Program-made: the position numbers and the translations under genes | Assembly (NCBI RefSeq): GCF_964019385.1 | Contig: NC_088654.1 | Span: forward strand, 5,677,218-5,741,217 | Source of the DNA: Sycon ciliatum | Lineage: Eukaryota; Porifera; Calcarea; Leucosolenida; Sycettidae | Reading direction: 5' to 3' | DNA length: 64,000 bases | Shown here: positions 2,873-57,576 of the stretch, piece after piece | How the letters are laid out: every line of letters starts with the position of its first letter | Position numbering within the stretch: position 1 is the stretch's first letter | Notes under the pieces: model-generated | Database searches by the model: none | Seen by the model: only the letters and a program-made list of their open reading frames with translations | Told to the model about the DNA's origin: nothing

Positions 2873-4446
2873 TTATACACCCGGTTGTGGAGATTTGGGC
2901 TGCACTGGCGGAAATGCTAGACAGGGCCGCGCACTTGAAGGTAACTGAGGTTTAGACACGGTCTGATGCTGTCGAGTGCTGTTATCGACCTGCTGCCGAG
3001 CGGGAGGAGAAGTCTGCACAGCGCCACTGCGATTGGGGCTGCTTTTAGGGAAGTTACGATACGTATTTCTAACACCAGCGTCACTTGAATCTCCACTGCA
3101 CTGATATACATTCTCTGCAACCGCATTGCCGCCACTTGCAACTTCACCATATTGATATACATTCTCTGTGGTCACATTTCTAGCAATGGTATCACGTGCA
3201 CCTTCATCACACTGATATACATTCTCTGCAACCGCATTGCCGCCACTTGCAACTTCACCATATTGATATACATTCTCTGTGGTCACATTTCTAGCAATGG
3301 TATCACGTGCACCTTCATCACACTGATATACATTCTCTGCAACCGCATTGCTGCCACTTGCAACTTCACCATATTGATAATATACATTCTCTGTGGTCAC
3401 ATTTCTAGCAATGGTATCACTTGCACCTTCATCACACTTATATTCATTCTCTGCAATTGCTTTGCTGCCACTTGTAATTTCACCATAATATTGATATTCA
3501 TTCTCTGCAATCGCATTTCTAGCAATGGGATCACTTGCACCTTCATAACACTTATATTCATTCTCTGTAATGGTGTTGCTGTCTCTTGCAACTTCACCAC
3601 ATTGATATACATTCTCTGCAACGTTGTTGCTGTAACTTGCAACTTCACCACATTGATATACATTCTCTGCAACGTTGTCGCTGTAACTTGCAACTTCACC
3701 ACATTGATATATATTCTCTGTAATCCCGTTTCCACCAATGGTATTACTCGCACCTGCACCGCTGCTGTCGTTGACGCACATGTTATACACATCACTGTCA
3801 TCACCACTCTCATTGCCGTAGATGTCAGCGTCGATGACATTGCCATCCACATCACGGTCATCACCACTCTCATTGCCGTAGATGTCAGCGTCGATGACAT
3901 TGCCATCCACATCACGGTCATCACCACTCTCATTGCCGTAGATGTCAGCGTCGATGACATTGCCATCCACATCACTGTCATCACCACTCTCATTGCCGTA
4001 GATGTCAGCGCCGTGCTTACTGTCACCGCTGAGGCTGCATGGAGTCTCCTCAGTGTCTCCAGTTACAAGTTTGGGTCGGCCAGTGGTTTGTTCGCTAGAA
4101 TTGCAGCTAGTGAAAGTCGCTACACTGGCCGGGGAACGATTGTCATGGGAATCATCATGTATCGCCTCGGCTGATAGACTTTCACTAGTACTAGCACTCG
4201 TGTGGTCAGAACGAGCGCTTTTCTTTAAGGCTAACCCGAGAACACGCTGGTACATACTAGCTTTGTTGGCTTTGGGTGAGCGGCGGCATGCTGTGTTGCT
4301 CTTCGTTGCCGCCGTGGAGAAATTGATGACGTACTGGTTGCTGTTGGCCTTGTCCGGTGCACCAGAATCTCTCTTTGCCAATTCAAGGCTGTAAACTGTA
4401 TTGGAGTACACGTTGCCCGCGTCATTCCCCAAAATGTGACGAGAGG
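2873..4446 (-). CDS. Terminal exon: cytoplasmic tail with tandem tyrosine motifs
   Basis: Open for 523 codons after a pyrimidine-rich acceptor (ttcttctccctgcag|CC) and ends at TAA (2875-2873). The frame stays open upstream to an ATG at 4549, but the acceptor and the matching phase 1 make a splice start at 4446 better supported. Order of parts: an N-terminal segment with VYSNTVYSL and NQYVINF; a Ser/Thr-rich stretch; four 20-residue repeats around DIYGNESGDD (60 bp DNA repeats, about 3777-4010); then about twelve repeats of 16-20 residues built on ENVYQC/ENVYQY/ENEYKC (about 3100-3735); and a Pro/Ser-rich C terminus (SPPARQQ, KPQLPSS, PPVQPKSPQP). YGNE and YSNT fit the known Grb2-type SH2 preference pY-x-N. 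Acidic residues just before each Tyr suit tyrosine kinases. No catalytic domain is seen. Inference: a multi-site phosphotyrosine docking tail, with proline motifs as possible SH3 ligands. It could instead be a free-standing low-complexity protein if the splice model is wrong. Confidence 0.7.
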
Positions 4447-6196: not shown

Positions 6197-6253
<57 letters not shown>

Positions 6254-16337: not shown

Positions 16338-16372
<35 letters not shown>

Positions 16373-19300
16373 AACACACATACACACAGAGAACTGTGAG
16401 CAGTATCCAAATTAGACTCGGAGAGTTTTGACCGACCTTTGGTCTATCTTTTCAAAATTCGGAATTTAATACTTACATTTTCCAAGTGTACGTCCAGACC
16501 TGCTGGATATTCCGTGTATTCCTCGCAGCTTATTGTTTCGAAAACGAATGAAAAAAGTAAACAAAGTCACTACCAGCACAGCAACAAGACTGAGAGAAAG
16601 ACCCAGAGTTAGGTAGGTATTCGACTGACTTGCGTTGGCGTCTGTTGCTGAAAGTCAGAATGCAACAGTTCAAGCAGACAAAAGGGCCGATAAGATGAAT
16701 TCATCACTGACATTCATGCATGAATGAATACCAATCACTCAATGCAAACAAATGTTTCTAGCGCACAACCACCTCTCTGCTTAAACATACAACTACTATC
16801 GCAGATGCGCAACCAGCAGTCCCGCACTTCCCATTCTCATACAGTTTCACAGTCACAGCTATACGCGCTCAGGCACACCCCCAGCCACACCCCCAGCCAG
16901 TCACCCAACCACCACCCTCCAATCCACTCCCTGCACTGCAAAATACAGACTTGTCATGCTCGTATCAGTCGTTCGTACAATCAGGGAAGGTGCATTTCTT
17001 CTTGCCGGTGCCGGTGGTTGTGCTTTGGCAAAGAACGTTTTCGGCATGAAATAGTGCAGATTCATTTATGCTACAACGATGAGTCAACAACCGTGACAAG
17101 TGACAATACAACGAACAGCTCCCGGACCTAAAACGTTCAGATCCCGTAGTGTTGTGAACCTTGAACCGAAGAGTTGTGGCCGTGGTTCAAAGAGCCTGCA
17201 TTGTTCTCCAAAAGAGCAGCGTCCAAAATATGCCATGCTGACACCAAAAATCACTATATGGCAGACTACTGGAGTCGTTATGGAACAGCTTTTAGAGCAC
17301 TCCCATCAGTCTTCTCCATTTCGCCGACTCTACTCTCCAGATATCTGATAATCATATCAGCCTCGCCGCTGCTGCTTCTTCATCAGTCGCAAACGCTGCA
17401 GGGCTCACTCTTGACCAGCCCGCTCGGCCATTTCTTCTGCAGAACACCGGAGTTCTCAGCCCAGACCGAACTCATGAAGGTCAGCCATGGCTGCATCCTC
17501 ACTCTCACACAGATTTATGTCTTCGTGGCCGCTTGCACCGACTACTATCGGTCGTCAAATCATTTGAAATAGCATTGACACTATTGATTTCCTGCAGTCC
17601 CTTTGACCTGGCTGCATGCTATGGCATTGCAGATTGTGTGGGGCGGCTGCATGACGTCATGGGCGCAACCCCTCCCCCCATACTTAGTTTTTCGAACGGA
17701 AATATCTCAAGAACGCTTTGTTGAAGGCAGGTCGGACCAACAACATTGAACTCAGCGACCCAAACTCTCCGGGTCCTGAAATTTAATTTTTTTCTCCGAA
17801 CTTCCCCATTAAGTGTGCCGATTCATGACATTATGACTTACCTGTGCAATGCGTTTCATTTCCCTGGTAACCAGTTGTACATACACATGCATATGAACCA
17901 ATGGTATTGTTACATTGAGCGTTGACATGACAACCATGTGTTTTTGCTGTACATTCATTGGTGTCTGATATGGTGATACAGTGGACAACAGAATAGCATA
18001 ACATGCTAGTCATTGGGCACTTTCGACTACATGTTTGGACCCAGGTTTTATAATTCTCGAATGAACAGAATGAACGCATTGCGGCCATGTAGACAAACGA
18101 CTACAGTGACATAAATCGTAAAAGGGGATCACGTGGGAGCCCGTGCACCCTCGCGCGCATGTGGACCTAGCACGGCGTTTACGTCGAGTGCGTCAATTCT
18201 GGAATTAGCAATTCTGGAATTACATGTCGCAATTCGGCCCTATCTTCAGAATTGACCAAATTGACGGAATTGCAATTGACGACAGATTTTGTGTAACTGA
18301 ACGGCGCATCCACCATAAATAATTCGACTGTCGTGGACATGGAAATCCGGTCGCATGTCTAGTGGCCCCAGACCACTGACCATGCAGCCGTGGATAAGCG
18401 GTACACACATGCATTTATGCGCTGCAGCGCGCTGGTTGTAGCGGATCAGCATGTGCACTGCACACAGCGTTCTGTACGCGCTGAGAGCACCGGCTCCGGT
18501 CAATTGACTGCATTTCTATGTTTCTATGTCTGCTGCAGTAGAATTGGCGGAAATGTGTGCAATCGAGCCCGCCCATTGTTACAGAGGTTTACAAAGCAAA
18601 CGTTTGTGCGGATTTTCGTTTGACCTCACGAAAAGGGAAACTTCATGCGAACGTTCGCAGGTTTGAACGCAACATTTGAAGAAAACGCGAAACAAAACTC
18701 GAACTACAGTAAAACCAGGTTCAAGTGACGACTTTGGTAACGGTCTTGCAGACAGAACTGTCATCATGGCATGGACTTACCCTCCACCAGCCGATAGATG
18801 CTGTCGCAGTCCGCACAATGGCAGCGGACCGACAGGCATGGCGTGGAGCCCGCACCACCTAACAGGACTGATTCTCGTGATCCACGTGATTCCGCCAGAC
18901 ATGTTGTATGCATATTCTATTTTATTTTATACTTTGGATAAGTTTTCCATTAGTAACAGGACTGATTCTCGTGATCCACGTGATTCCGCCAGACATGTTG
19001 TATGCATATTCTATTTTATTTTATACTTTGGATAAGTTTTCCATTAGTCCTATTGGTATTGTTGCTAACGGCGTTTGTTGATGTCACTTCTGTCATTTCA
19101 TTGTATCGCATTACTCTTCAGACATCAATCCTGAATGGCATAAGCGAAAGTGGCACCCCCGCCACCTACGCGGACATGCTTTTAATAATAATAATATACT
19201 AAAGTGACCATCCCACGGTGCAAGCGAAAGCGGTCGTTAAAGCCAAGTGGTCTTTAGAACCAGGTCCCATACATTCGCGGCATATCGGATCCTGTACATA

Positions 19301-46300: not shown

Positions 46301-49300
46301 GCGGAACACAGACCGGCATGGAGTGTAGGTTACACTTTCCATAGATCGACTGCATTTGTTACTAACGTAATCGTAATTATGTCGTGCGGAACCTCTCAAT
46401 CGTCAGAGATGTTTTGCAGAGCGAAAATTCAAGCGAATTTTCGTTTGACATCACGGGAAGGGGAACTTCATGTGAACGCCCGTGGCTTTGAACGCGAAAG
46501 TTGAAGGACAAGCGAAACAAACTTCAACTAATGTGCACAAAAATTGATGAAACATTCAAGTGTGTCGAGTCATAAAACTACGACTTACCTGAACAATGTG
46601 TTCCATTTCCTTGGTAACCAGTTAAACATGCACATGTATATGAACCAGGGATGTTGCTACAGTTGGCGTTGGCATGACAACTATTTGTTTTTGCCGTACA
46701 TTCATCGGTGTCTGATATGGTGATACAGTGGACAACAGAACAGCATAACATGCTAGTCATTGGGCACTTTCGATTACATATTTGGACCCAGCGCACTTCA
46801 ACCCTGTTTGTGTCAACCCTGCCAGTGAAGACGACACTTTTGGCTGGTTTGGGCCGCTGTGCGTAGGTCCTATATGGCACTTGGTACACTAAAAGTCGTT
46901 TGATGGCCGTGCAAGGTAGGTGGTCGCTGTATCCAGTGCTGTTTCTGTGTAGAACTGTCCGTGCATAAAAAAGCGGTCATTAAGAGCAGGTGGTCGTTAA
47001 ACCCAGAGGTCGCTTACACTAGGTTTTACTGTATTAGGAATGGGTTTGCTCCCAAACTGGAGCTCGTGCTATTCCGCCGACGACTTGACACTTGACTGAC
47101 TCACAACTGCCGCAAACTCGCAACCTCTAGTTTTACTGTACTGTACACAAAATCGACGAAACAGTCAAGTGTGCGGAGTCATAAAATTACGACTTACCTG
47201 AGCAATGTGTTCCATTTCCTTGGTAACCAGTTGAACATGCACATGTATATGAACCAGGGATGTTGCTACAGTTAGCGTTCGCATGACAACCATGGGTTTT
47301 TGCTGTACATTCATTGGTGTCTGATATGGTGGTACAGTGGACAACAGAATAGCATTAGGAGCCATTCGTAATTTTATTTAGAAACAAAAGTAGTTGTTTA
47401 AGGCGGGGGCGAGCGCCTGTTCGTTTCTCGAAAAATACCGATGCACAGTTTGTATGTGTGGGCACATCCAGCTAGAAAAGAAAAATCTATACTATGTGCT
47501 GTATGTATGTGTTCGTTTCTCAGGGAGGGGGTGGGAGGGGGGGGGGGGGTTGAAGAGAAATGACTAGTTTTCGTGTCTAAACGAGAGAGCTATGCTTTTT
47601 TGCCTTGATGACCTAGACAAAAAAAGCATAGGGATATTATAAATTTGAAACTCGGATGTTGAGCCATAAATAAATGTAGAAAGGAAAAGGACATAATATG
47701 GATACGAGTTAAGAGTAACTCTCCATCACTGTAACTGGATACTATCATACAGTCAGAAAGTGCAATAACTAGGCACAAAACTGACAAGAGTACTGAGACA
47801 TTCGACGTCCTGACACCTAGCTTCAACACATCTCCGTAGCGCTAACCGACAGCCTTCCAACTTGGAAGGTTCAAGGTTGTGGAAATACCAAAGAGGGGAA
47901 GGCAAGCATTACTCTTAACTCGTATCCATATGTCCTTTTCCTTTCTACATGTTATAAATTCTTATAAATTTCTACTTTTTGTTTTTAGACATAACCTGGG
48001 ATTCGAACCCGCACTATTGCCCTGCATGCATCCGTGGACCCCGATACACTTCGCATACATACTAATTCTTCCAAGTTGCTTCACGGTATGATCTTGTATT
48101 TGAAAGCGCTATATGAATATGCATTGTGGCCAGCCGTCTTTGATTGTACGGTACGGGACAGGTACGGTACGGGACAGGTACGGGACAGGTACGGGACAGG
48201 TACGGGACAGGTACGGGAAAGGTACGGGACAGGTACGGTCGAGGGTAATACGACACCATCTACCGCCTTGATGACGGCAAAAAAAGAATAGGGACGTTAT
48301 AAATTTTTCAATTTTCCTATTTTCAGGCATTACCAGGGATTCGAACCCGCACTATCGCCCTACATGCATTCCCCCATACACTTTGCATTCATACTCATTG
48401 TTCCAAGTTGCTTCACGTTATGATCTTGCGTTTGAGAGACCTATTTGAATAGTGCGGCCAGCTGTATGTGGCCAGCTGTGTTTGACGGTACGGTACGGTA
48501 CGGTACGGGACAGATACAGGATAGCGCCAGGCGTGACACAAACACACAAACAAACACACAAACAAACACCAAATTAAAGCTGTGGGGACCCTGGCTAGCG
48601 CCAGACGTTACTGAAGTAATGTCATCTGCATAGCTACGGGATTAAATAACAGTATTTGTTTGAAGAAGAGGTTGGTGCGACTTCGGTGATAGTAGGGGAA
48701 GAGTGTGTTGCTCCCTACATGGGAGCTCGCGGTTTTCCTGCCGACTTGAATTCTCACTTGACTGACTCATGACTGCCATCCAGAGCACACGAGAAGTCCA
48801 TCGAACCGTCCACTCGGCAAACCTGCAAGAAAGCACCACTCCCTGCTCAATACACAGTGTTTCAGTCGGGAGTCAGTCAATCAGAATTCAAGTTGGCAGG
48901 GAAACCGCGAGCTCCCACGTAGGGAGCAACACACTCTTCCCCTAGTATTTGTTTGTTTAGCTTTATTTTACTTCACCAGAAGCACAGGCAAAATCTGCCT
49001 TCTCACTGGGCATACTGCCACAGTTCTCGCAAAATGATGAAGGTGGTCATATAATGCGATTAATAGTATTAGTGAAGCGGACATTACAAAAAATCGGGAA
49101 AATCGTCTCACAATAGAGGCTATACGGAGAAACAAACTACTTATAGGTTACTTATATAGGTTACTTATAGGTTCTCCGTATAGCCTCTATTGTGAGACGA
49201 TTTTCCCTGATGATAGTCTCAAGAAAATCGATTAGGAACAACCATTTTAGATACATGTATTCTCATTCATCATTTTGTAATGTCCGCTTCACTAATACTA

Positions 49301-52300
49301 TTAATCGCATTAATAAAGTTATTGTCTCCTCGTCGTCTTTTCGTGGTCATATAAGAAAAGGAGGAAGAGGAAAATACAAATCATGAATAAGGCACTAGGA
49401 GAAGACGGAAATCAATGGGGGAGTACTACAAGTAACTTGAATTTGATGAATTTTTTCATGAAAATAATGCAACGGATCCAAAGGTTCCAGGGTTGAGGGA
49501 ATATTTACGGATGACCCCTAATGTACAAGTCATTAGAGGCGTTCCGCACTACGTGAAGTTGAGCAACCTTACGTTAGTGGGCAGGAAAACCCATGAACTC
49601 ACGAGTTTGCACTTCACTTATGGAAATTTGTCTATGTAGAGTACGTACGTAGGGCTCTGATAACGGAGGCGCTCCGGTGGTGTATTGGGGTGCAAATGGC
49701 TGACTCACTCCCTAGCTTGACCCGGTCGTACACTGCCGCGTTCCGAGTTGCCAAAGGCAGCTATGTCATTCGAAAACTACATATGGCGGAACACAGATCG
49801 GCATGGATTGTAGGTTAGACTTTCCATAGATCGACTACATTTGTTACTAACGTAATTATGTCGTGCGGAAACTCTCTATCGTCAAAGATGTTGTGCAGAG
49901 CGAAAATTCAAGCGAATTTTCGTTTGATATCACGGAATGGGGAACTTCGTGTGAACGCCCGTGGCTTTGAACGCGAAATTTGAAGGAAACGCGAAACAAA
50001 CTTGAACTGCTTCGCATAAAAATCGACGAAACAGTCAAGTGTGCCGAATCATAAAATTGCTACTTACCTGAGCAATGTGTTCCATTTCCTTGGTAACCAG
50101 TTGAACATGCACATGTATATGAACCAGGGATGTTGCTACAGTTAGCGTTGGCATGACAACCATGTGTTTTTGCTGCACATTCATTGGTGTCTGATAATAT
50201 TATGGTGATAAAGTGAACAACAGAATAACATTACTTCCTCCGTATGCAAAAACTTCGTGACATTTTTAAGGCTGCGCATAGCTATGCAATTGTTTAGCTT
50301 GACTTAGAATAACACTCGTGGCATTGTCTAACCTATTTATAAGCTATATACAAAGACAAAAAGCACCTCAGACGAATGATATTGAGTTTATTCCGAGTCT
50401 TCTTTGCTCTTGTCATTCAAGCGAATTTTCGTTTGACATCACGGGATGGGGAACTTCGGGTGAACACCCGTGGCTTTGAACGCGAAAGTTGAAGGAAACA
50501 CGAAACAAACTTGAACTACTTCACACAAAAAATGATGAAGCAGTCAAGTGTGCCAAGTCATAAAACTACGACTTACCTGAGCAATGTGTTCCATTTCCTT
50601 GGCAACCAGTTAAACATGCACATGTATATGAACCAAGGATGTTGCTACAGTTGGCGTTGGCATGACAACTATTTGTTTTTGCCGTACATTCATTGGTGTC
50701 TGATATGGTGATACAGTGGACAACAGAACAGCATAACATGCTAGTTATTGGGCACTTTCGATTACATATTTGGACCCAGCGCACTTCACCCCTGTTTGTG
50801 TCAACCCTGACAGTGAAGACGACACTTTTGGCTGGTTCGGGCCGCTGTGCGTAGGTCCTATGTGGCGCTTGGTACACTAAAAGTCGTTTGATGGCGGTGC
50901 AAAGTAGGTGGTCGCTGTATCCAGTGCTGTTTCTGTGTAGAACTGTCCGTGCATGAAAAAAGCGGTCATTAAGAGCAGGTGGTCGTTAAACCCAGAGGTC
51001 GCTTACACCAGGTTTTACTGTATTAGGAATGGGTTTGCTCCCAAACTGGAGCTCGCGCTATTCCGCCGACGACTTGACACTTGACTGACTCACGACTGCC
51101 GCAAACTCGCAACCTCTATTTTTACTGTACTGTACACAAAATCGACGAAACAGTCAAGTGTGCCGAGTCATAAAATTACAACTTACCTGAGCAATGTGTT
51201 CCATTTCCTTGGTAACCAGTTGAACATGCACATGTATATGAACCAGGGATGTTGCTACAGTTAGCGTTGGCATGACAACCATGCGTTTTTGCTGTACATT
51301 CATTGTTGTCTGATATGGTGATTCAGTGGACAACAGAATAGCATTAGGAGCCATTCGTAAATGTAGATATTTATTTAGAAACCAAAACTAGTTGTTTAAG
51401 GGGAATATCAGTATTTTACGGATGATCCTTAATGTGCAAGTCATTAGAGACGTTCCGCACTACGTGAAGTTGAGCAACCTTACGTTAGTAGGCGGAAAAA
51501 CCCGTGAACTCGCGAGTTTGCACTTAACCTATGGAAAGTTGTCTATGTATAGTACATACGTAGGGCTCTGATAACGGAGGTGCTCCGTAAGTGTATTGGG
51601 GTGCAAAATTTTGACTCACTCCCTAGGTCGACCCGGTCGTACACTGCCGCGTTCCGAGTTGCCAAGGGCAGCTATATCATTCGAAAACTACATATGGCGG
51701 AACACAGACCGGCATGGAGTGTAGCTTACACTTTCCATAGATCGACTGCATTTGTTACTAACGTAATCGTAATTATGTCGTGCGGAACCTCTCAATCGTC
51801 AGAGATGTTTTGCAGAGCGAAAATTCGAGCGAATTTTCGTTTGACATCACGGGAAGGGGAACTTCATGTGAACGCCCGTGGCTTTGAACGCAAAAGTTGA
51901 AGGACACGCGAAACAAACTTCAACTAATGTGCAAACATTCAAGTGTGTCGAGTCATAAAACTACGACTTACCTGAACAATGTGTTCCATTTCCTTGGTAA
52001 CCAGTTAAACATGCACATGTATATGAACCAGGGATGTTGCTACAGTTGGCGTTGGCATGACAACTATTTGTTTTTGCCGTACATTCATCGGTGTCTGATA
52101 TGGTGATACAGTGGACAACAGAACAGCATAACATGCTAGTCATTGGGCACTTTCGATTACATTTTTGGACCCAGCGCACTTCAACCCTGTTTGTGTCAAC
52201 CCTGACAGTGAAGGCGACACTTTTGGCTGGTTTGGGCTGCTGTGCGTAGGTCCTATATGGCACTTGGTACACTAAAAGACTACAGTGCATTTCAAAACTA

Positions 52301-55300
52301 TAGACGCGTAGAGTTTTTGAAATATTTCAAATTTGGCTGGAACGTTTTGAGAATAGTTTTCGGAATATTGCTCAGGATCGCTCCACAATTACTCTCATAT
52401 AGTTTCTAAAGGATTGGATAACAGACGCCCAATTTGGAAAAAATTATGCACAAAGTGATCACAGATTTTATGTGGTATAGATGCTGGCATAACGGTTTTT
52501 GCCTAGGTACGCGTCTATAGTTTTGAAATGGACTGTAGTAAAAGTCGTTTGATGGCGGTGCAAGGTAGGTGGTTGCTGTATCCAGTGCTGTTGCTGTGTA
52601 GAACTGTCCGTGCATGAAAAAAGGTCATTAAAAGCAGGTGGTCGCTAAACCCAGAGGTTGCTTTCACCAGGTTTTACTGTAGTAGGAATGGGTTTGCTCC
52701 CACACTGGAGCTCGCGCTATACTGCCGACGACTTGACACTTGACTGCCGCAAACTCGCAACCTCTATTTTTACTGTACTGTACACAAAATCGACGAAACA
52801 GTCAAGTGTGCGGTGTCATAAAATTACAACTTACCTGAGCAATGTGTTGCATTTCCTTGGTAACCAGTTGAACATGCGCATGTATATGAACCAGGGATGT
52901 TGCTACAGTTAGCGTTCGCATGACAACCATGTGTTTTTGCTGTACATTCATTGTTGTCTGATATGGTGATACAGTGGACAACAGAATAGCATTAGGAGCC
53001 ATTCGTAATTTTATTTAGAAACAAAAAGTAGTTGTTTAAGGCGGGGGTGAGCGCCTGTTTGTTTCTCGAAAAAATACCGATGCACAGTTTGTATGTGTGG
53101 GCACATCCAGCTAGAAAAGAATAATCTATACTATGTGCCGTATGTATGTGTTCGTTTTTCAAGGAGGGGGGGGGGGGTTGAAGAGAAATGACTAGTTTTC
53201 GTGTCTAAACGAGAGAGCTATGCTTTTTTGCCTTGATGACCAAGACAAAAAAGCATAGGAATATTATAAATTTGAAACTCGGATGTTGAGCCATAAATAA
53301 ATGTAGAAAGGAAAAGGACATAATATGGATACGAGTTAAGAGTAACTCTCCATCACTGTGACTGGTATATACAGTCAGAAAGTGCAACAACTAGGCACAA
53401 AACTGAAAAGAGTACTGAGACATTTGACGTCCTGACACCTAGCTTCAACACATCTCCGTAGCGCTAACTGACAGCCTACCAACTTGGAAGGTTCAAGGTT
53501 ATGGAAAGACCAAAGAGGGGAAGGCAAGCGTTACTCTTAACTCGTATCCATATGTCCTTTTCCTTTCTACATGTTATAAATTCTTATAAATTTCTACTTT
53601 TTTGTTACTCGGATGTTGAGCCATAAATAAATGTAGAAGAGAAAAGGACATATGGATACGAGTTAAGAGTAACTCTCCATCACTGTAACATGATACTTTA
53701 TACAGTCAGAAAGTGCAATAACTAGGCACAAAACTGACAGAGTACTGAAACATTCGACGTCCTGACACCTAGCTTCAACACATCTCCGTAGCGCTAACCG
53801 ACAGCCTTCCAACTTGGAAGGTTCAAGGTTATGGAAAGACCAAAGAGGGGAAGGCAAGCGCAACGAAAACGAGCAAAAGCTACAGTCCCAACGGAACAAA
53901 GAATGTCGATTGTTACTGGACGATGACGAGACCAGTACGATATTTGACAAAGCGGTCTAACTACAATTCGAAGCAGCAAAGCAGCACACCACCCAACTTG
54001 GGTGGGTCATAAATATCAAAGATAAGTAAAGAAAGGGAAGCTTTGCGAAAACGAATTGTACAAGCCGAAAGCCAAACTCCTACAGTACTCCTCATGCATG
54101 ACATTGTGATGGACTAGTTGACTACAAAACAAGTTGTTTCACACGACGTACGTTTCGCCGTATGGTTCGTGACGGCTCATCAGGTGTGCAATATGAAACT
54201 CGGATGTTGAGCCATAAATAAATGTAGAAGAGAAAAGGACATATGGATACGAGTTAAGAGTAACTCTCCATCACTGTAACATGATACTTTATACAGTCAG
54301 AAAGTGCAATAACTAGGCACAAAACTGACAGAGTACTGAAACATTCGACGTCCTGACACCTAGCTTCAACACATCTCCGTAGCGCTAACCGACAGCCTTC
54401 CAACTTGGAAGGTTCAAGGTTATGGAAAGACCAAAGAGGGGAAGGCAAGCGCAACGAAAACGAGCAAAAGCTACAGTCCCAACGGAACAAAGAATGTCGA
54501 TTGTTACTGGACGATGACGAGACCAGTATGATATTTGACAAAGCGGTCTAACTACAATTCGAAGCAGCAAAGCAGCACACCACCCAACTTGGGTGGGTCA
54601 TAAATATCAAAGATAAGTAAAGAAAGGGAAGCTTTGCGAAAACGAATTGTACAAGCCGAAAGCCAAACTCCTACAGTACTCCTCATGCATGACATTGTGA
54701 TGGACTAGTTGACTACAAAACAAGTTGTTTCACACGACGTACGTTTCGCCGTATGGTTCGTGACGGCTCATCAGGTGTGCAATATGAAACTCGGATGTTG
54801 AGCCATAAATAAATGTAGAAGAGAAAAGGACATATGGATACGAGTTAAGAGTAACTCTCCATCACTGTAACATGATACTTTATACAGTCAGAAAGTGCAA
54901 TAACTAGGCACAAAACTGACAGAGTACTGAAACATTCGACGTCCTGACACCTAGCTTCAACACATCTCCGTAGCGCTAACCGACAGCCTTCCAACTTGGA
55001 AGGTTCAAGGTTATGGAAAGACCAAAGAGGGGAAGGCAAGCGCAACGAAAACGAGCAAAAGCTACAGTCCCAACGGAACAAAGAATGTCGATTGTTACTG
55101 GACGATGACGAGACCAGTACGATATTTGACAAAGCGGTCTAACTACAATTCGAAGCAGCAAAGCAGCACTTTTCTCTTCTACATTTATTTATGGCTCAAC
55201 ATCCGAGTTTCATATTGCACACCTGATGAGCCGTCACGAACCATACGGCGAAACGTACGTCGTGTGAAACAACTTGTTTTGTAGTCAACTAGTCCATCAC

Positions 55301-57576
55301 AATGTCATGCATGAGGAGTACTGTAGGAGTTTGGCTTTCGGCTTGTACAATTCGTTTTCGCAAAGCTTCCCTTTCTTTACTTATCTTTGATATTTATGAC
55401 CCACCCAAGTTGGGTGGTGTGCTGCTTTGCTGCTTCGAATTGTAGTTAGACCGCTTTGTCAAATATCATACTGGTCTCGTCATCGTCCAGTAACAATCGA
55501 CATTCTTTGTTCCGTTGGGACTGTAGCTTTTGCTCGTTTTCGTTGCGCTTGCCTTCCCCTCTTTGGTCTTTCCATAACCTTGAACCTTCCAAGTTGGAAG
55601 GCTGTCGGTTAGCGCTACGGAGATGTGTTGAAGCTAGGTGTCAGGACGTCGAATGTTTCAGTACTCTGTCAGTTTTGTGCCTAGTTATTGCACTTTCTGA
55701 CTGTATAAAGTATCATGTTACAGTGATGGAGAGTTACTCTTAACTCGTATCCATATGTCCTTTTCTCTTCTAATTTTTTGTTTTTAGACATAACCTGGGA
55801 TTCGAACCCGCACTATCGCCCTGCATGCATCCCCGGACTCCCGATACACTTCGCATGCATACTAATTCTTCCAAGTTGCTTCACGTTATGATCTTGTATT
55901 TGATATATGAATATGCATTGTGGCCAGCCGTCTTTGATTGTACGGCACGGGACAGGTACGGTACGGGACAGGTACGGGACAGGTACGGGACAGGTACGGG
56001 ACAGGTACGGGAAAGGTACAGGACAGGTACGGTTGAGGGAAATACGACACCATCTACCACCTTGATGACGGCAAAAAAAGAATAGGGATGTTATAAATTT
56101 TTCAATTTTCCTTTTTTCAGGCATTCCCAGGGATTCGAACCCGCACTATCGCCCTACATGCATTTCCCCATACACTTTTGCATTCATACTCATTCTTCCA
56201 AGTTGCTTGACGTTATGATCTTGCGTTTGAAAGCCCTTTTGGATAGTACGGCGAGCTGTATGTGGCCAGCTGTGTTTGATGGTACGGTACGGTACGGGAC
56301 AGATACGGGACCCTGGCTAGCGCCAGACGTTACTGAAGTAACGTCATCTGCATAGCTTCGGGAATAAATAACAGTATTTGTTTGAAGAAGAGGTTGGTGC
56401 GACTTTGGTGATAGTAGGGGAAGATTGTGTTGCTCCCTACATGAATTCTCACTTGACTGACTCACGACTGCCATCCAGAGCACACGAGAAGTCCATCGAA
56501 CCTACAACTGGCAAACCTGCAAGAAAGCACCACTCCCTGCTCAATACACAGTGTTTCAGTCGGGAGTCAGTCAATCAGAATTCAAGTCGGCAGGAAAACC
56601 GCGAGCTCCCACGTAGGGAGCAACACACTCTTCCCCTAGTATTTGTTTGTTTAGCTTTATTTTACTTCACCAGAAGCACAGGCAAAATCTGCCTTCTCAC
56701 TGGGCGTACTGCCACAGTTCTCGCAAAATGATGAAGGTGGTCATATAAGAAAAGGAGGAAGAGGAAAATACAATCATGAACAAGGCACAAAGAGAAGACG
56801 GAAACAAATCAATGGGGGAGTACTACAAGTAACGAATTTGAATTTCATGAATTTTTTCATGAAAATAATGCAACGGATCCAAAGGAATATTTACGGATGA
56901 CCCCTAATGTATAAGTCATTAGAGGCGTTCCGCACTACGTGAAGGTGAGCAACCTTACGTTAGTGGGCGGGAAAACCAGTGAACTCACGAGTTTGCACTT
57001 CACTTATGGAAATTTGTCTATGTAGAGTACGTACGTAGGGCTCTGATAACGGAGGCGCTCCGGAGGTGTATTGGGGTGCAAATTGTTGACTCACTCCCTA
57101 GCTTGACCCGGTCGTACACTGCCGCGTTCCGAGTTGCCAAAGGCAGCTATGTCATTCGAAAACTACATATGGCGGAACACAGATCGGCATGGATTGTAGG
57201 TTAGACTTTCCATAGATCGACTACATTTGTTACTAACGTAATTATGTCATGCGGAAACTCTCTATCGTCAGAGATGTTGTGCAGAGCGAAAATTCAAGCG
57301 AATTTTCGTTTGACATCACGGAATGGGAAACTTCTTGTGAACGCCCGTGGCTTTGAACGCGAAAGTTGAAGGAAACGCGAAACAAACTTGAACTGCTTCG
57401 CATCAAAATTGATGAAACAGTCAAGTGTGCCGAATCATAAAATTACGACTTACCTGAGCAATGTGTTCCATTTCCTTGGTAACCAGTTAAACATGCACAT
57501 GTATATGAACCAGGGATGTTGCTACAGTTAGCGTTGGAATGACAACCATGTGTTTTTGCTGCACATTCATTGTTGT
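2873..57576 (-). CDS. Gene model: EGF-array single-pass receptor with tyrosine-repeat tail (5' incomplete)
   Basis: Composite gene span, not one open frame. In sense order the visible exons are 23 EGF exons (57576 down to 17842), a transmembrane exon (16647-16477) and a terminal exon (4446-2873). Every EGF exon starts after a ...TATCAG acceptor and ends at an AG|GTAAGT-type donor; all introns are phase 1. EGF exon 17842-17964 ends with G, which joins CA of the transmembrane exon to give Ala. The transmembrane exon ends with T, which joins CC of the tail exon to give Ser. The inferred product is a type I plasma-membrane protein with up to about 940 residues of EGF modules, one span and a 523-residue tail. 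Signal peptide, any other ectodomain and the start codon were not found and probably lie beyond the window. Small exons in the 12 kb intron before the tail could have been missed. Family context: EGF-rich receptors of the Notch/MEGF/fibrillin type use phase 1-1 EGF exons. No kinase domain is visible. Confidence 0.75.
3100..4010 (-). repeat. In-frame minisatellites encoding the tyrosine motifs
   Basis: Two tandem arrays lie inside the tail exon. The first (about 3777-4010) has four nearly identical 60 bp units coding for DIYGNESGDD(S/R)DVDGNVIDA. The second (about 3100-3735) has units of about 48-60 bp, partly organised as 114-120 bp doublets, coding for E-N-x-Y cores. Unit lengths are multiples of three, so copy number can change without breaking the frame. 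Near identity of neighbouring units indicates recent expansion or homogenisation. Confidence 0.85.
4598..4838. repeat. Fold-back repeat upstream (in sense) of the tail exon
   Basis: CAGCAGAATCAACGAAGCGGACATTGGACGTGGTAAT near the left end pairs imperfectly with the sequence ending in TTCTGCTG on the right. The core AGCGGACATT also occurs in the fold-back at 29951, so the two may be related. No ORF. Confidence 0.55.
4839..5473. other. Intronic stretch, nothing recognised
   Basis: Unique-looking AT-rich DNA within the long intron between the transmembrane and tail exons. I see no gene, array or clear element ends. Confidence 0.4.
5474..5571 (-). repeat. Retroposon 3' tail (TGGTGAAGTAAAATAAA family)
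   Basis: On the minus strand it reads ...GAAGGCAGGCATGCCTGTG...TGGTGAAGTAAAATAAA followed by (CAAA)n. The same roughly 100 bp tail recurs at 15905, 20591, 29845 and 56640. This is the pattern of 5'-truncated LINE/SINE copies ending in a short microsatellite. Confidence 0.6.
5572..5890. other. Intronic stretch with a T-rich run
   Basis: A T/G-rich run at about 5594-5620, then unique-looking sequence. No gene recognised. Confidence 0.4.
5891..6880. mobile_element. Decayed mariner-like repeat (CAGTAAAACCTGG family)
   Basis: Starts TACAGTAAAACCTGGTTTAAGC and includes segments also found at 18707-20140 (CCCATACA..CG.GG..TATCGGATC, then GGTCC.ATATGGCACTTGGTACACTAAAAGTCG at the right). Interrupted by the (GT)n tract. 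The right end is not clear. Confidence 0.55.
6008..6268. repeat. (GT)n microsatellite
   Basis: About 260 bp of mostly GT repeats in two halves, each followed by a matching GATAATGCGGGAGTGTGGAG segment (about 6109 and 6271). The halves look like a tandem duplication of a GT tract plus its flank. Confidence 0.9.
6881..8370. other. Intronic stretch without a recognised gene
   Basis: Contains two loosely similar segments (about 7800-7930 and 7990-8110), each with CGAAA..GCCGA and ending ..AATCGATGTTTT, probably a decayed tandem or paired repeat. ATACCCTGGACGGTTGGCAT at about 8279 is repeated directly at about 11388, just outside the other end of the 2.9 kb element. Confidence 0.4.
8862..9125. 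repeat. 67-68 bp tandem repeat (left arm)
   Basis: Units around AACGCCCGTGATCGGCAGAG recur at about 8931, 8999 and 9066. The same unit is present in inverse orientation at 10540-10800. Confidence 0.8.
9118..9390. repeat. 177 bp tandem duplication
   Basis: CATCCCGTCGACGCGC..AAATCTGCAG..CTCTTTTGCCGTCGGACAGGATACGTATT..AGGAGACTG occurs at 9118 and again at about 9298. Confidence 0.75.
9391..10270. other. Interior of the 2.9 kb element; no gene
   Basis: AT-rich DNA with (TAG)n at about 9618-9632. An inverse copy of 8300-8350 (AAAAAGCATA..GCGTAGGGCCCT..GCTTCCAAGC) lies at about 10055-10108. Confidence 0.45.
10540..10815. repeat. 69 bp tandem repeat (right arm)
   Basis: Four units of GTGACCGGCGCTGACTCTGC followed by CGATCACGGGCGTTCTGGAGTCGAC-like sequence, inverse to the array at 8862-9125. 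Confidence 0.8.
11470..14655 (+). pseudogene. CR1/jockey-like LINE, decayed, EN-RT remnant
   Basis: Broken ORF2 of a non-LTR retrotransposon. An apurinic-type endonuclease piece (11500-11842) has ETWLKQD, GGGVAVYC and CCYRPP. After an inserted MITE, VGDFNVD (about 12290) and SDHF (about 12487) follow in other frames. Reverse transcriptase (about 12995-13990) shows KATGSDRIPSFLL, LPQNYRPVSL, VDMSKAFD, GVPQGSVLGPLLF and, where YADD is expected, KTDDIVID. The C-terminal GSILWNALPSDF lies near 14525 and a stop near 14620, followed by AT-rich 3' sequence. At least four frame changes and the lost first catalytic-box residues make it non-functional. ORF1 is not found. It is antisense to the host gene, inside the long intron. 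Confidence 0.85.
11843..12237. mobile_element. Mariner-like MITE inside the LINE endonuclease
   Basis: 395 bp. CAGTCCATTCA..AAAAA..GATGG at the left and its inverse at the right, flanked by TA on both sides (11841-11842, 12238-12239). It splits the endonuclease frame between ..FWASL and the DFN motif. Same terminal family as 33181-33433 and the partial copy at 58373. Confidence 0.8.
14656..15904. other. Intronic stretch; possible coding remnant on the minus strand
   Basis: Mostly unrecognised. On the minus strand about 15555-15415 reads ATRIFDSWISGDTQLPVIVS then RKKNQVKVKRFRSDDKPSAK, and a neighbouring frame gives DDEFESSVTRSGDADSSGES. This looks like a frameshifted coding remnant, perhaps from a transposon. 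The family is not identified and it could be chance. Confidence 0.3.
15905..16335 (+). repeat. LINE 3' end fragments
   Basis: At 15905-16010: ATCATTCTGTGAGAACCTG..GAGAAGGCA..TTTGGTGAAGTAAAATAAA then (CAA)n, the plus-strand form of the tail family. At 16010-16335: a second fragment ending GGCCATCGTGAGAATAAAAG followed by AAATACATACA and (CA)n, another retroposon-style tail. No intact frame. Confidence 0.55.
16339..16388. repeat. (CA)n microsatellite
   Basis: About 50 bp of CACA with interspersed AAACA, directly after the retroposon tail. Confidence 0.9.
16477..16647 (-). CDS. Transmembrane exon of the EGF receptor
   Basis: 171 bp exon, phase 1 at both ends, acceptor ctttcag|CA and donor AAAT|GTAAGT. 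It encodes a short Ser/Asn linker (TDANASQSNTY), a hydrophobic segment of about 22 residues whose core is LTLGLSLSLVAVLVVTLFTF, then FIRFRNNKLRG with clustered Arg/Lys. That is the usual type I arrangement: EGF exons upstream on the outside, basic stop-transfer and tail downstream on the inside. The exon lies 1.2 kb downstream (in sense) of EGF exon 17842-17964. Its left part is just outside the 19.1 kb duplication, so it is the only intact copy in the window. Confidence 0.8.
16648..17841. other. Intron between transmembrane exon and EGF exon 1
   Basis: No exon recognised on the minus strand. The plus strand has overlapping open frames (about 16724-17131 and 17174-17572) without recognisable domains. 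The copy at 35768-36961 appears identical. Confidence 0.4.
17842..17964 (-). CDS. cbEGF exon 1 (copy 1, most 3', divergent)
   Basis: 123 bp, phase 1-1, 41 residues. The Ca-binding EGF signature is DTNEC near the start and C-N-N-x4-Y-x-C-x-C in the middle; six cysteines. It is the most divergent copy (HVNAQCNNTIGSYACVC, TTGYQGNETHC) and has two sequons (NNT, NET). It is the module next to the membrane in the model. Confidence 0.85.
17965..18706. other. Intron segment upstream of EGF exon 1
   Basis: The first 100 bp (TAGCATAACATGCTAGTCATTGGGCACTTTCGA) are conserved upstream of most EGF exons. A GATTTTCGTTTGAC..TCACG segment near 18610 is a shared intron module also seen at 27330, 30815 and elsewhere. 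Duplicated at 37085-37826. Confidence 0.5.
18861..19050. repeat. 94 bp tandem duplication
   Basis: AACAGGACTGATTCTCGTGA... repeats at 18861 and 18955 and ends ..AAGTTTTCCATTAG each time. Also at 37981-38170. Confidence 0.9.
19506..19943. mobile_element. MITE with AGG(G)AGGTTTCGCTCTACG ends, 3 bp target site
   Basis: 438 bp. Inverted ends continue into ATTACGTATGAAAAT. ACT flanks both sides, and the empty site GACACTTTTGGCTGG is present in the paralogous introns at 26310, 27720 and 31718, which proves the insertion boundaries. No transposase. Copy 2: 38626-39063. Confidence 0.85.
20199..20321 (-). CDS. cbEGF exon 2 (copy 1)
   Basis: 123 bp, phase 1-1. Begins DNNECAAKTHGC; has CSNILGSYTCAC and NGTHC (sequon). 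Six cysteines, donor CAG|GTAAGT. It follows a 1.4 kb mariner-like repeat in the intron. Confidence 0.85.
20350..20590. repeat. Dispersed repeat with G-rich tracts
   Basis: GGAGCCATTCGTAAA...GAGCGCCTGTTCGTTTCTCG...GTGTGGGCACATCCAGCTAG...GTTCGTTTCTCAGGGAGGGG. Family members lie at 28246-28470, 33892-34110, 62840-63060 and the copy 2 positions. The G tracts vary in length between copies. Confidence 0.7.
20591..20735 (-). repeat. Retroposon 3' tail copy
   Basis: TTGTTTGTTTAGCTTTATTTTACTTCACCAGAAACACAGGCAAAATCTGCC on the plus strand, the inverse of the 15905 tail. It preserves the empty site (GTGGTCATATAAGAAAAGG) used by the fold-back at 29951. Copy 2: 39711-39855. Confidence 0.6.
20967..21179. 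mobile_element. MITE with CCGTAAAGTC termini, TA-flanked
   Basis: 213 bp. CCGTAAAGTCTTGTACAAAAG at the left and CTTCTATACAAGACCTTACGG at the right, with TA on both sides. Same family as 365-672, with GGCTTCTAT motifs inside. Copy 2: 40087-40299. Confidence 0.75.
21405..25918 (+). pseudogene. LINE with gag-like ORF1 and EN-RT ORF2, degenerate (copy 1)
   Basis: Non-LTR retrotransposon in an EGF-gene intron, antisense to the gene. ORF1 region (21438-22742, three frames) has a zinc knuckle CFHCAAPGHKARDS in which the last Cys is Ser. Endonuclease (22780-23547) shows NAFGLLSKL, VIIVTETKL, a TAG at 22972, GGGVAVWTRDG, GAVYRPGS, VAGDFNVL and GASDHV. Reverse transcriptase (about 24135-24950) shows KAKGPDRIPARVL, LRNHRPVSLL, GFRKGLGTSD, AIDIAGAFDKVSH, GVLQGSILGP and AVYADGTTAY, so the catalytic YADD reads YADG. 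A C-terminal domain runs to 25515. Poly-A of 8 and a candidate AATT target site lie at 25913-25922. Empty-site comparison with 30739-30760 supports both ends. Several frameshifts and the active-site change make it inactive. Confidence 0.88.
25770..25791. repeat. Poly-C tract
   Basis: About 21 consecutive C after CTACCTCCT. The copy 2 equivalent near 44890 is 7 bases shorter. It is in the 3' region of the LINE. Confidence 0.9.
26069..26191 (-). CDS. cbEGF exon 3 (copy 1, subtype B)
   Basis: 123 bp, phase 1-1. DTNECTAKTNSC, CSNILGSYTCACLTGYQG, NGTHC. Subtype B is marked by TNSC and LTGYQG. It lies just past the 3' end of the intronic LINE. Confidence 0.85.
26678..26800 (-). CDS. cbEGF exon 4 (copy 1, subtype A)
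   Basis: 123 bp, phase 1-1. DNNECTAKTHGC, CSNIPGSYTCACSTGYQG, NGTHC. Subtype A is marked by THGC and STGYQG. Spacing to exon 3 is 609 bp. Confidence 0.85.
27476..27598 (-). CDS. cbEGF exon 5 (copy 1, subtype B)
   Basis: 123 bp, phase 1-1. DTDECTAKTNSC, CSNIPGSYTCACLTGYQG, NGTHC. DTDEC is the strongest match to the D-x-D-E-C calcium site among these copies. Confidence 0.85.
28085..28207 (-). CDS. cbEGF exon 6 (copy 1, subtype A)
   Basis: 123 bp, phase 1-1. DTNECTAKTHGC, NIPGSYTCACSTGYQG, NGTHC. It differs from its 19 kb-distant twin by one silent base (Ala GCC/GCG). Confidence 0.85.
28410..28448. repeat. Variable poly-G tract
   Basis: GGGAGGGGGTGGGAGGGGGG-type run. 11 bases shorter in copy 2 (about 47523-47550). 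Part of the dispersed repeat described at 20350. Confidence 0.85.
28572..28848. mobile_element. 277 bp MITE related to the 591 bp repeat
   Basis: ATGTAGAAAGGAAAAGGACA at the left and its inverse at the right; inverted ends of about 45 bp. The interior matches the first part of the 591 bp monomer (ACAGCCTTCCAACTTGGAAG palindrome). Copy 2: 47674-47950. Confidence 0.75.
28862..29160 (-). repeat. SINE-like repeat with B-box plus 11 bp minisatellite
   Basis: The minus strand contains GTGCGGGTTCGAATCCCAGG, an exact RNA polymerase III B-box (GGTTCGAATCC). It is preceded in sense by (GGTACGGGACA)n in inverse orientation (29042-29135). No convincing A-box or cloverleaf, so a tRNA-derived SINE is likely rather than a tRNA gene. 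Copy 2: 47964-48262; relative: 55772-56060. Confidence 0.5.
29200..29545 (-). repeat. Second SINE-like repeat joined to the end of the 8441-type element
   Basis: B-box GGTTCGAATCC on the minus strand near 29230. Then TACGGTACGG repeats, GCGCCAGGCGTGACACAAAC and GACGTTACTGAAGTAACGTC up to the CTACGGGAT end at about 29545, as in the right end of 8441-11360. Copy 2: 48302-48647; relative: 56110-56366. Confidence 0.5.
29591..29842. mobile_element. Fold-back MITE with about 60 bp ends (TAGGGGAAGAGTG)
   Basis: 252 bp. TAGGGGAAGAGTGTGTTGCT at the left is mirrored at 29823-29842. Both arms include GGGAGCTCGCGG and CAAGT/ACTTG. Related to the intron motif GGGTTTGCTCCCA..CTGGAGCTCGCG found beside the EGF exons. 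Copy 2: 48693-48944; a deleted relative: 56415-56638. Confidence 0.75.
29845..29960 (-). repeat. Retroposon 3' tail copy, split by a fold-back
   Basis: Same tail as 20591. It continues after the inserted fold-back at about 30241. Copy 2: 48947-49062. Confidence 0.55.
29951..30239. mobile_element. Fold-back element with nested inverted repeats
   Basis: ATGCGATTAATAGTATTAGTGAAGCGGACATTAC is mirrored at about 30175-30209. Inside, GGGAAAATCGTCTCACAATAGAGG is mirrored around 30079-30104. Flanking GTGGTCATATA occurs on both sides, while the empty site is single at about 20688 and 56731, so an unusually long (about 11 bp) target duplication accompanied the insertion. Copy 2: 49053-49341. Confidence 0.7.
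30966..31088 (-). CDS. cbEGF exon 7 (copy 1, subtype A)
   Basis: 123 bp, phase 1-1. DTNECAAKTHGC, NIPGSYTCACSTGYQG. The intron just before the acceptor has an extra ATTATA-type insertion, but the terminal CAG is intact. It sits alone, between the two four-exon blocks. Confidence 0.8.
31475..31597 (-). CDS. cbEGF exon 8 (copy 1, subtype B, extra Cys)
   Basis: 123 bp, phase 1-1. DTNECTAKTNSC, NILGSYTCACLTGCQG. The usual GYQG is GCQG, giving a seventh cysteine in a six-cysteine fold. The change is a single A-to-G and is shared by the copy at 50577. Confidence 0.82.
32085..32207 (-). CDS. cbEGF exon 9 (copy 1, subtype A)
   Basis: 123 bp, phase 1-1. DNNECTAKTHGC, NIPGSYTCACSTGYQG, NGTHC. Spacing to exon 8 is 610 bp, the same as exons 3 to 4. 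Confidence 0.85.
32870..32992 (-). CDS. cbEGF exon 10 (copy 1, subtype B)
   Basis: 123 bp, phase 1-1. DTDECTAKTNSC, NIPGSYTCACLTGYQG. Counterpart of exon 5 in the 5.4 kb block duplication. Confidence 0.85.
33181..33433. mobile_element. Mariner-like MITE (CAGTGCATTTCAAAACTATAGACGCG)
   Basis: 253 bp with inverted ends of about 28 bp (right end ..TATAGTTTTGAAATGGACTG), flanked by TA. Inserted in the intron upstream of EGF exon 10 but absent from the block-duplicate intron at 27780, so it postdates the 5.4 kb block duplication and predates the 19.1 kb one. Copy 2: 52283-52535. Confidence 0.82.
33733..33855 (-). CDS. cbEGF exon 11 (copy 1, subtype A)
   Basis: 123 bp, phase 1-1. DNNECTAKTHGC, NIPGSYTCACSTGYQG, NATHC in place of NGTHC (sequon kept). 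Spacing to exon 10 is 863 bp, because a 253 bp MITE lies in the intron; without it the spacing is the standard 610. Confidence 0.85.
34199..34470. mobile_element. 272 bp MITE related to the 591 bp repeat
   Basis: Block-duplicate of 28572-28848, with the same ends ATGTAGAAAGGAAAAGGACA and inverse. Copy 2: 53301-53572. Confidence 0.75.
34505..35714. repeat. 591 bp tandem repeat (copy 1: two monomers plus a stub)
   Basis: Monomers start at 34505, 35096 and 35687 with ACTCGGATGTTGAGCC; period exactly 591. Monomers are almost identical (for example C/T at 34838 against 35429). The third is cut after 28 bases by the duplication junction. Short open frames in each monomer look non-coding. Confidence 0.9.
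35628..35767 (-). pseudogene. Truncated second copy of the transmembrane exon, fused to repeat DNA
   Basis: The acceptor and first 53 bases of the exon (TDANASQSNTYLTLGLS) are identical to the intact exon. At 35715 the sequence switches to the 591 bp repeat family; the short shared stretch AGAA marks the breakpoint. Reading on gives 28 unrelated residues and a TGA at 35630-35628. Most of the span and the donor are lost. If skipped, flanking EGF exons still join in frame because all are phase 1-1. If used as a terminal exon, it would give an ectodomain without a proper membrane span. No polyadenylation signal was identified close by. Confidence 0.75.
36962..37084 (-). CDS. cbEGF exon 1' (copy 2)
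   Basis: Identical by eye to the exon at 17842, offset 19120. The transmembrane exon that should follow is truncated at 35715. Confidence 0.82.
39319..39441 (-). CDS. cbEGF exon 2' (copy 2)
   Basis: Copy of the exon at 20199 (offset 19120): DNNECAAKTHGC, phase 1-1. Confidence 0.82.
40525..45031 (+). pseudogene. LINE copy 2 (carried by the segmental duplication)
   Basis: Same element as 21405-25918, with the same TAG, the same YADG and the same frameshifts, so it was not a separate insertion. Differences seen: one Thr-to-Asn in GASDHV(T/N)L (42600), one T-to-C at 43003, and a shorter poly-C tract (about 44891). Confidence 0.9.
45182..45304 (-). CDS. cbEGF exon 3' (copy 2, subtype B)
   Basis: Copy of the exon at 26069. 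The offset is now 19113, because the poly-C tract in between is 7 bases shorter in copy 2. Confidence 0.82.
45791..45913 (-). CDS. cbEGF exon 4' (copy 2, subtype A)
   Basis: Copy of the exon at 26678 (offset 19113); DNNECTAKTHGC, phase 1-1. Confidence 0.82.
46589..46711 (-). CDS. cbEGF exon 5' (copy 2, subtype B)
   Basis: Copy of the exon at 27476 (offset 19113); DTDECTAKTNSC, phase 1-1. Confidence 0.82.
47198..47320 (-). CDS. cbEGF exon 6' (copy 2, subtype A)
   Basis: Copy of the exon at 28085 (offset 19113), with one silent change in the CHANA Ala codon. Confidence 0.82.
50068..50190 (-). CDS. cbEGF exon 7' (copy 2, subtype A)
   Basis: Copy of the exon at 30966. The offset is 19102 after a poly-G tract that is 11 bases shorter in copy 2. 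Confidence 0.8.
50577..50699 (-). CDS. cbEGF exon 8' (copy 2, subtype B, extra Cys)
   Basis: Copy of the exon at 31475 and keeps the GCQG seventh cysteine, so that change predates the 19.1 kb duplication. Confidence 0.8.
51187..51309 (-). CDS. cbEGF exon 9' (copy 2, subtype A)
   Basis: Copy of the exon at 32085 (offset 19102), phase 1-1. Confidence 0.82.
51972..52094 (-). CDS. cbEGF exon 10' (copy 2, subtype B)
   Basis: Copy of the exon at 32870 (offset 19102), phase 1-1. Confidence 0.82.
52835..52957 (-). CDS. cbEGF exon 11' (copy 2, subtype A)
   Basis: Copy of the exon at 33733 (offset 19102), with NATHC; phase 1-1. Confidence 0.82.
53607..55167. repeat. 591 bp tandem repeat (copy 2: two full monomers plus a partial third)
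   Basis: Monomers start at 53607, 54198 and 54789. The third stops after about 379 bp at GCAAAGCAGCAC, where an inverted monomer begins. Confidence 0.9.
55168..55772. repeat. Inverted full-length monomer of the 591 bp repeat
   Basis: Reverse complement of the monomer: starts TTTTCTCTTCTACATTTATT and ends ..CATATGTCCTTTTCTCTTCT. With the partial third monomer it forms a hairpin-capable palindrome of several hundred bp per arm. Confidence 0.9.
55772..56366 (-). repeat. SINE-like pair, relative of 28862-29545
   Basis: Two B-box segments on the minus strand (near 55800 and 56136). The 11 bp minisatellite lies at 55945-56030 and the CAGACGTTACTGAAGTAACG end at about 56323. It has the same order as 28862-29545 with deletions, so this is an older block duplicate. 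Confidence 0.55.
56415..56638. mobile_element. Fold-back MITE, left arm partly deleted
   Basis: Relative of 29591-29842: TAGGGGAAGATTGTG... at the left, lacking the GGGAGCTCGCGG segment, which is intact in the right arm. Confidence 0.7.
56640..56775 (-). repeat. Retroposon 3' tail copy
   Basis: Same family as 20591; carries the uninterrupted GTGGTCATATAAGAAAAGGA site. Confidence 0.6.
57454..57576 (-). CDS. cbEGF exon 12 (most 5' seen)
   Basis: 123 bp, phase 1-1, outside the 19.1 kb duplication. DNNECAAKTHGCHSNANC, NIPGSYTCACLTGYQG, NGTHC. It has HSN where other copies have HAN. Its flanks resemble those of exon 7 (AATAACATTACTTCC, ATGATATTGAGTTTATTCC), so these two are block relatives. No EGF exon is seen from here to 64000. 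Confidence 0.83.

Follow-up and report, generated by a model that had tools for sequence, protein, structure and literature searches.

Do the EGF exons on contig C13 of the Sycon ciliatum genome belong, together with a membrane-span exon and a tyrosine-rich exon, to one receptor gene, and do the numbers of its extracellular modules and docking sites change without a break in the reading frame? An earlier note, made from the letters of a 64,000-nt stretch of DNA (C13:5677218-5741217; hereafter the window), proposed both. Our search of the genome (538 Mb in 313 contigs) revealed five copies of the same exon anatomy with variable module counts, and at two of these loci the array is preceded by a further set of exons, which we refer to as the head.

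Exon anatomy of the window copy

The minus strand of the window contains 23 EGF exons of 123 nt each, all in phase 1-1, and every one of them is flanked by a TCAG acceptor and a GTAAGT donor (23/23), which confirmed the array of same-strand, phase-1 exons described in the earlier note (Table 1). Downstream of the array lie a membrane exon and the exon encoding the tail, and the splice phases of the three exon classes are compatible throughout. The tail comprises 523 aa after a split codon and ends in a stop; our counts of its DIYGNE and EN[VIE]Y motifs agreed with the four and twelve reported before. The tail lies in an open frame of 569 codons; under an independence model, such a frame would arise ~2e-10 times in random sequence with the same base composition. 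Hydrophobicity, judged by eye, indicated one complete membrane-span exon between the ectodomain and the tail. The single membrane span reported in the earlier note was thus found again, but a second, truncated copy of the exon had been missed.

A two-unit test protein scored above the Pfam cut-offs for EGF_CA (69 bits vs 27) and EGF_3 (82.8 bits vs 28.5). All 12 distinct units, comprising one copy of each of 11 duplicated pairs and one single exon, matched the consensus patterns for cbEGF modules and for Asx hydroxylation. The distinct exons were on average 93% identical over 66 pairs, compared with 72% for the 100-bp intron flanks, and their mean dN and dS values were 0.063 and 0.100, respectively. 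A seventh cysteine was present in exons 5 and 16. Because the units are homogenised and not diversified, our working model is that the array may chiefly form a stalk, stiffened by calcium and variable in length, and not a series of separate sites for ligands.

Elsewhere, EGF_CA matches form long clusters at C2:24.65-24.91, C3:36.06-36.71, C10:27.03-27.24 and C1:93.70-93.76 Mb, with many of the matches in short open frames; EGF exon arrays are therefore common in this genome.

The introns of the window copy contain LINE-like open frames on the plus strand at 11.4-14.2, 21.8-25.5 and 40.9-44.6 kb, in which endonuclease and reverse-transcriptase motifs were recognised by eye; the latter two frames are a duplicated pair. 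An open frame on the minus strand (60335-61337) encodes a charged, coiled-coil-like sequence with a 15-bp repeat and is perhaps transposon-derived, and a 141-aa part of it had no Pfam match. Cysteine-containing, secreted-looking ORFs lie on the plus strand upstream of the gene, at C13 5745-5785 kb (68.8-71 kb and 106.7 kb in window coordinates), and had no Pfam match at E<=0.1. Five ORFs on or near the window and one stretch of the tail likewise matched no Pfam family at E<=0.1.

Table 1. Coordinates of the exons and of the tandem duplication. Positions are those of the window unless C13 is given.
Feature	Position	Strand	Phase or remark
Cadherin exon, locus E	C13 7116113-7116355	-	phase 0-0
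Cadherin exon, locus E	C13 7115628-7115735	-	phase 0-0
Cadherin exon, locus E	C13 7114487-7114600	-	phase 0-0
Cadherin exon, locus E	C13 7114039-7114176	-	phase 0-0
Cadherin exon, locus E	C13 7113156-7113284	-	phase 0-0
Cadherin exon, locus E	C13 7112335-7112505	-	phase 0-0
Last cadherin exon, locus E	C13 7111613-7111773	-	phase 0 to 2
TSP1 exon, locus E	C13 7108935-7109072	-	phase 0-0
Linker exon X6, locus E	C13 7106062-7106233	-	phase 0 to 1
Linker exon X5, locus E	C13 7104205-7104321	-	phase 1-1
EGF exon 1	57454..57576	-	single copy, outside the 19-kb duplication
EGF exon 2	52835..52957	-	
EGF exon 3	51972..52094	-	
EGF exon 4	51187..51309	-	
EGF exon 5	50577..50699	-	extra Cys, Y33C
EGF exon 6	50068..50190	-	
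EGF exon 7	47198..47320	-	
EGF exon 8	46589..46711	-	
EGF exon 9	45791..45913	-	
EGF exon 10	45182..45304	-	
EGF exon 11	39319..39441	-	
EGF exon 12	36962..37084	-	duplicate of exon 23
Truncated membrane exon copy	35715..35767	-	acceptor plus first 53 nt, then stop; lacks the span
EGF exon 13	33733..33855	-	
EGF exon 14	32870..32992	-	
EGF exon 15	32085..32207	-	
EGF exon 16	31475..31597	-	extra Cys, Y33C
EGF exon 17	30966..31088	-	
EGF exon 18	28085..28207	-	
EGF exon 19	27476..27598	-	
EGF exon 20	26678..26800	-	
EGF exon 21	26069..26191	-	
EGF exon 22	20199..20321	-	
EGF exon 23	17842..17964	-	last before the membrane exon
Complete membrane exon	16477..16647	-	phase 1-1, CAG acceptor, AAAAT/GTAAGT donor, one span
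Tail exon with stop	2873..4446	-	31 Tyr, 4 DIYGNE, 12 EN[VIE]Y
Tandem segmental duplication, first copy	16595..35714	.	
Tandem segmental duplication, second copy	35715..54824	.	99.86% identical

A recent 19-kb tandem duplication in the window copy

Self-comparison of the window revealed a segment of 19.12 kb that recurs head-to-tail with eight mismatches and three gaps in 19128 positions. Each copy of the segment carries 11 EGF exons and one EGF exon lies outside, so that the 23 exons are accounted for as 2 x 11 + 1. The earlier count of 23 near-identical exons was therefore correct, but about half of them are due to this one recent duplication. The breakpoint lies within the membrane exon and left a fragment of it that separates EGF exon 12 from exon 13; splicing of this fragment into the transcript would add ~46 residues and a stop, with no membrane span. 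Approximately 4 bases are common to both sides of the junction (by eye), and inside the 11-exon block smaller blocks, introns included, were duplicated as well.

A unit of ~591 bp, in direct and inverted copies, adjoins the breakpoint (34505-35721 and 53607-55779); it was also found upstream of the window at 91.2-91.9 kb and at a second locus (B, below).

So few differences between the two copies could also mean that the assembly placed a repeated or haplotype segment twice. We regard such an artefact as distinctly unlikely, because the copies stand head-to-tail, flanked by unique sequence and with a clean breakpoint within the membrane exon, and because the number of EGF exons varies in other paralogs as well.

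Five copies on C13

A genome search with the tail identified five loci, all on C13 and on the same strand, which we lettered A to E in order of position, with A for the copy in the window. Their tails lie at about 5.68, 5.85, 6.00, 6.88 and 7.06 Mb, and their matched pieces share 97-100% identity with the query; each of the five loci also has a complete membrane exon, with 93-100% identity. The EGF matches at loci A to E numbered at least 23, 11, 18, 11 and 15, respectively (78 of 110 matches at E<=1e-9); these are lower bounds, with 150 of 2746 candidates scored, and one of the 11 matches at locus D covers 35 of 42 residues. The EGF exons of loci B to E are search matches, of which the first exons at C, D and E were read directly. 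The paralogs differ by ~1%, and such near-identical copies are ones that an assembly could misplace.

The EGF, membrane and tail exons recur together at the five loci in the same order and on the same strand, and their phases fit, which supports the earlier assignment of the three classes to one gene; the joins between exons are deduced from splice phase, exon order and recurrence. Between the membrane and tail exons of the window lie 12 kb with retrotransposon-like sequence, as might be found if the tail and EGF exons were two neighbouring genes with the membrane exon in one of them. The fivefold recurrence, the matching phases and the lack of a separate start downstream of the tail exon's acceptor make this arrangement highly unlikely.

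All five tails are open, with lengths of 523, 543, 486, 523 and 523 aa at loci A to E. They contain 4, 5, 4, 4 and 4 DIYGNE motifs, 12, 12, 9, 12 and 12 EN[VIE]Y motifs and 31, 33, 29, 31 and 31 tyrosines, respectively. Since the counts differ between copies while the frame is intact, both module numbers vary in frame. The earlier proposal that ectodomain modules and docking sites evolve in number by in-frame duplication is consistent with these counts, although the difference among the tails is slight. In-frame minisatellite units that expand or are lost best explain the changes in tail motif number.

A decayed tail-end relic with stop codons was detected at C13:5579491-5579655, ~100 kb from the tail of the window copy. 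This dead sixth member is as a birth-and-death process predicts.

A cadherin-TSP1-linker head at two loci

At loci C (18 EGF exons) and E (15 EGF exons), the minus strand 5' of the array encodes cadherin repeats, a TSP1 domain and two linker exons, X6 and X5 (Table 1). The cadherin exons, joined by hand, matched Cadherin PF00028 in two stretches (50.5 bits vs a cut-off of 28.8), and a comparison with PDB sequences gave CELSR1 (8vy2_A, 2.6e-50). The TSP_1 score was 24.3 bits for the exon alone and 21.1 bits in a longer joined query, against a cut-off of 21.6. X6 and X5 together had no Pfam match over the cut-off, and the donor phase of X5 fits the first EGF exon. At locus E, the last cadherin exon ends in phase 2 and the TSP1 exon starts in phase 0; one exon is therefore missing between them, for which 7110035-7110131 is a candidate. 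Apart from this gap, the head exons are compatible in phase. No N-terminal exon or signal peptide was found for E and C up to 7.15 and 6.099 Mb, respectively. Between C and E, nine head exons differed at 23 of 1347 positions, compared with 2.27% in the surroundings, which is not significantly slower (p=0.20). The EGF exons, taken in the earlier note for the ectodomain of the receptor, are part of it but probably not the whole, in that two paralogs add the linker, TSP1 and cadherin parts at the 5' side.

X5 had four matches in the genome, from four candidates scored, namely at loci C and E and at two loci on contig C9. On C13, the other head exons matched solely at C and E (12 of 12 C13 matches; 121 of 176 candidates scored). 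X6, X5 and several other head exons recur at the two C9 loci with ~47-72% identity; the splice boundaries of X6 and X5 are identical in the C9 paralog, in which these exons are ~54-62% identical. The two C9 loci (5187119-5203806, minus strand, and 5269612-5282349, plus strand) stand in opposite orientation and have the same cadherin-TSP1-linker exon order. No EGF exon was found in the 8 kb after X6 of the C9 paralog, and an exon of C9, c9b, was not found in the loci examined.

The 5' end of the window copy

The 5' end of the gene in the window lies outside the window. No cadherin, TSP1 or linker exon was found in the 50 kb upstream, in agreement with the absence of C13 head matches other than those at C and E, and a simple scan to 72 kb, of a kind that may miss such exons, turned up no convincing candidate for a signal-peptide exon that ends in a phase-1 donor. 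Because the head is missing, the window copy is probably a 5'-truncated derivative and perhaps a pseudogene; the headless loci B and D also look 5'-truncated.

Sequence upstream of the window at 93.5-94.7 kb resembled the intron before TSP1 at locus E and was considered as a relic of a lost head; this was rejected, as the sequence is a dispersed repeat (at least 40 near full-length copies among the 51 matches listed, with 40 of 363 candidates scored). At loci A, B and D, copies of the repeat occupy corresponding positions, which agrees with a shared segmental duplication.

Loci A, B and D could instead be complete short receptors, each with a signal peptide, an EGF array, a span and a tail, and loci C and E would then be later fusions with a cadherin gene. 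At A, B and D, the exons for the EGF modules, the membrane span and the tail are all intact, although intactness says little at a divergence of ~1%. Upstream of the array, A, B and D resemble one another in sequence that is absent from C and E, which share a different sequence. Moreover, the C9 cadherin paralogs share the head alone, so that the head and the EGF-tail part could once have been separate. The scan for a signal-peptide exon weighs against complete short receptors, and we consider them unlikely; truncation of the window copy remains our preferred reading.

The tyrosine-rich tail

The earlier note had pointed to YxN motifs as the preference of Grb2-type SH2 domains, but the tail is not mainly an array of such sites. 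YxN was found at 7 of the 31 tyrosines (the four DIYGNE motifs and three others), an excess over shuffled tails (p=0.015). The twelve EN[VIE]Y motifs all lack it and were accordingly rejected as Grb2 sites. Valine or isoleucine precedes 16 of the 31 tyrosines, a count reached in none of 5000 shuffles, and an acidic residue stands within four positions upstream of 23 of them; all of these counts include tandem copies. Src-family kinases prefer substrates with valine or isoleucine at -1 and acidic residues upstream. By these preferences, the tail would look more like a series of substrate sites for Src-family kinases than like an array of Grb2 sites. The 523-aa tail matched no Pfam family at E<=1, and neither a kinase domain nor a known cadherin tail or catenin-binding domain was found in it.

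Selection on the tail is hinted at by tests that are weak or mixed. In the tail, 26 of 1458 sites vary, roughly half the rate in the adjacent intron (32/968, p=0.02), and the variable sites are spread evenly over the codon positions (9/8/9). Pairwise dN/dS was 0.41-0.82 in nine of the ten pairs and 3.0 in the remaining pair, which has a single synonymous change. None of the 18 variable amino-acid columns among the five tails affects a tyrosine, which is uninformative because ~1 is expected by chance. Between the repeat units within the tail, pN/pS was 1.24 and 1.10, values that do not demonstrate purifying selection.

These data also bear on the possibility that recent duplication left non-functional debris, comprising either the entire cluster or at minimum the window copy, in which the frames are open for lack of time. 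The low divergence of the paralogs and the even codon positions are compatible with such decay, as are, for the window copy, the missing head and the membrane exon broken inside the array by the 19-kb duplication. We nevertheless think this possibility unlikely, since all five tails are open, all 23 EGF exons of the window have intact splice sites, the EGF exons are far more alike than their introns, and the tail is about half as variable as the intron beside it.

A probable birth-and-death cluster of adhesion receptors

Our best explanation, which we hold to be probable, is a birth-and-death cluster of cadherin-type adhesion receptors in which the EGF stalk is variable and the tail is a tyrosine-rich docking region; the window copy would be a headless derivative. 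The full form, at loci C and E, would comprise cadherin repeats, TSP1, the two-exon linker, 15-18 near-identical cbEGF modules, one span and a tail of ~490-540 residues. EGF exons would be gained and lost through unequal duplication, with the introns duplicating along, and the headless copy A would have been enlarged to 23 EGF exons by the recent 19-kb duplication. If this model holds, the figure of 23 reflects a local and recent condition, not how the receptor is built in general. We infer a single transcript, whose product would adhere through the head, extend on the EGF stalk and be phosphorylated and dock SH2 proteins at the tail. The cadherin/TSP1 head may make calcium-dependent cell contacts, and the tail may be phosphorylated by Src-like kinases and recruit SH2 adaptors, those of the Grb2 type at the few YxN sites.

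Fat, Dachsous, CELSR/Flamingo, the type III classical cadherins and hedgling are members of the cadherin superfamily with membrane-proximal EGF repeats; loci C and E share with them the order of cadherin repeats, EGF modules and membrane span. Unlike these proteins, C and E have TSP1 and the linker between the cadherin and EGF parts; the parts scanned here gave no LamG, 7TM, catenin-binding or phosphatase domain; the number of EGF units varies, and the units are near-identical; the tail is a tyrosine repeat array with no Pfam match; and the window copy is without the cadherin part. MEGF10/Draper/CED-1 are EGF-rich receptors with tyrosine-motif tails and share an EGF array, a single span and tail tyrosine motifs with the present proteins, whose modules are, in contrast, cbEGF and not laminin-type EGF, with no EMI domain found, no ITAM/NPxY array noted and far more tyrosines. 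The multi-site docking tails and scaffolds LAT, FRS2 and Gab/DOS have in common with the tail many tyrosines, a disordered-looking, kinase-free region and some YxN sites, whereas the tail described here consists of tandem minisatellite units and belongs to a transmembrane protein with an EGF ectodomain.

We know of no named family with the order cadherin-TSP1-linker-EGF-span-tyrosine tail. A word search of open papers, which is no proof of absence, found no title or abstract with this domain combination; PMC10199209 is only loosely related. Set against known families, the protein would count as a cadherin-type adhesion receptor whose tail is unusual; the novelty of the combination is weakly supported.

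A further reading is that the cluster is one of fast-turnover, cadherin-headed receptors in which stalk length and tyrosine valency are tuned in frame, possibly for individual-specific contact or self/non-self recognition, with the headless copies as decoys or donors; this is speculative, and we give it little weight. If the birth-and-death model holds, a cluster of copies that diverge by ~1% shows stalk length and docking-motif number changing while the frame is unbroken. Its members would then be natural length variants with which to probe stalk length and phosphotyrosine valency in invertebrate signalling, and the receptor would be a candidate for contact recognition.
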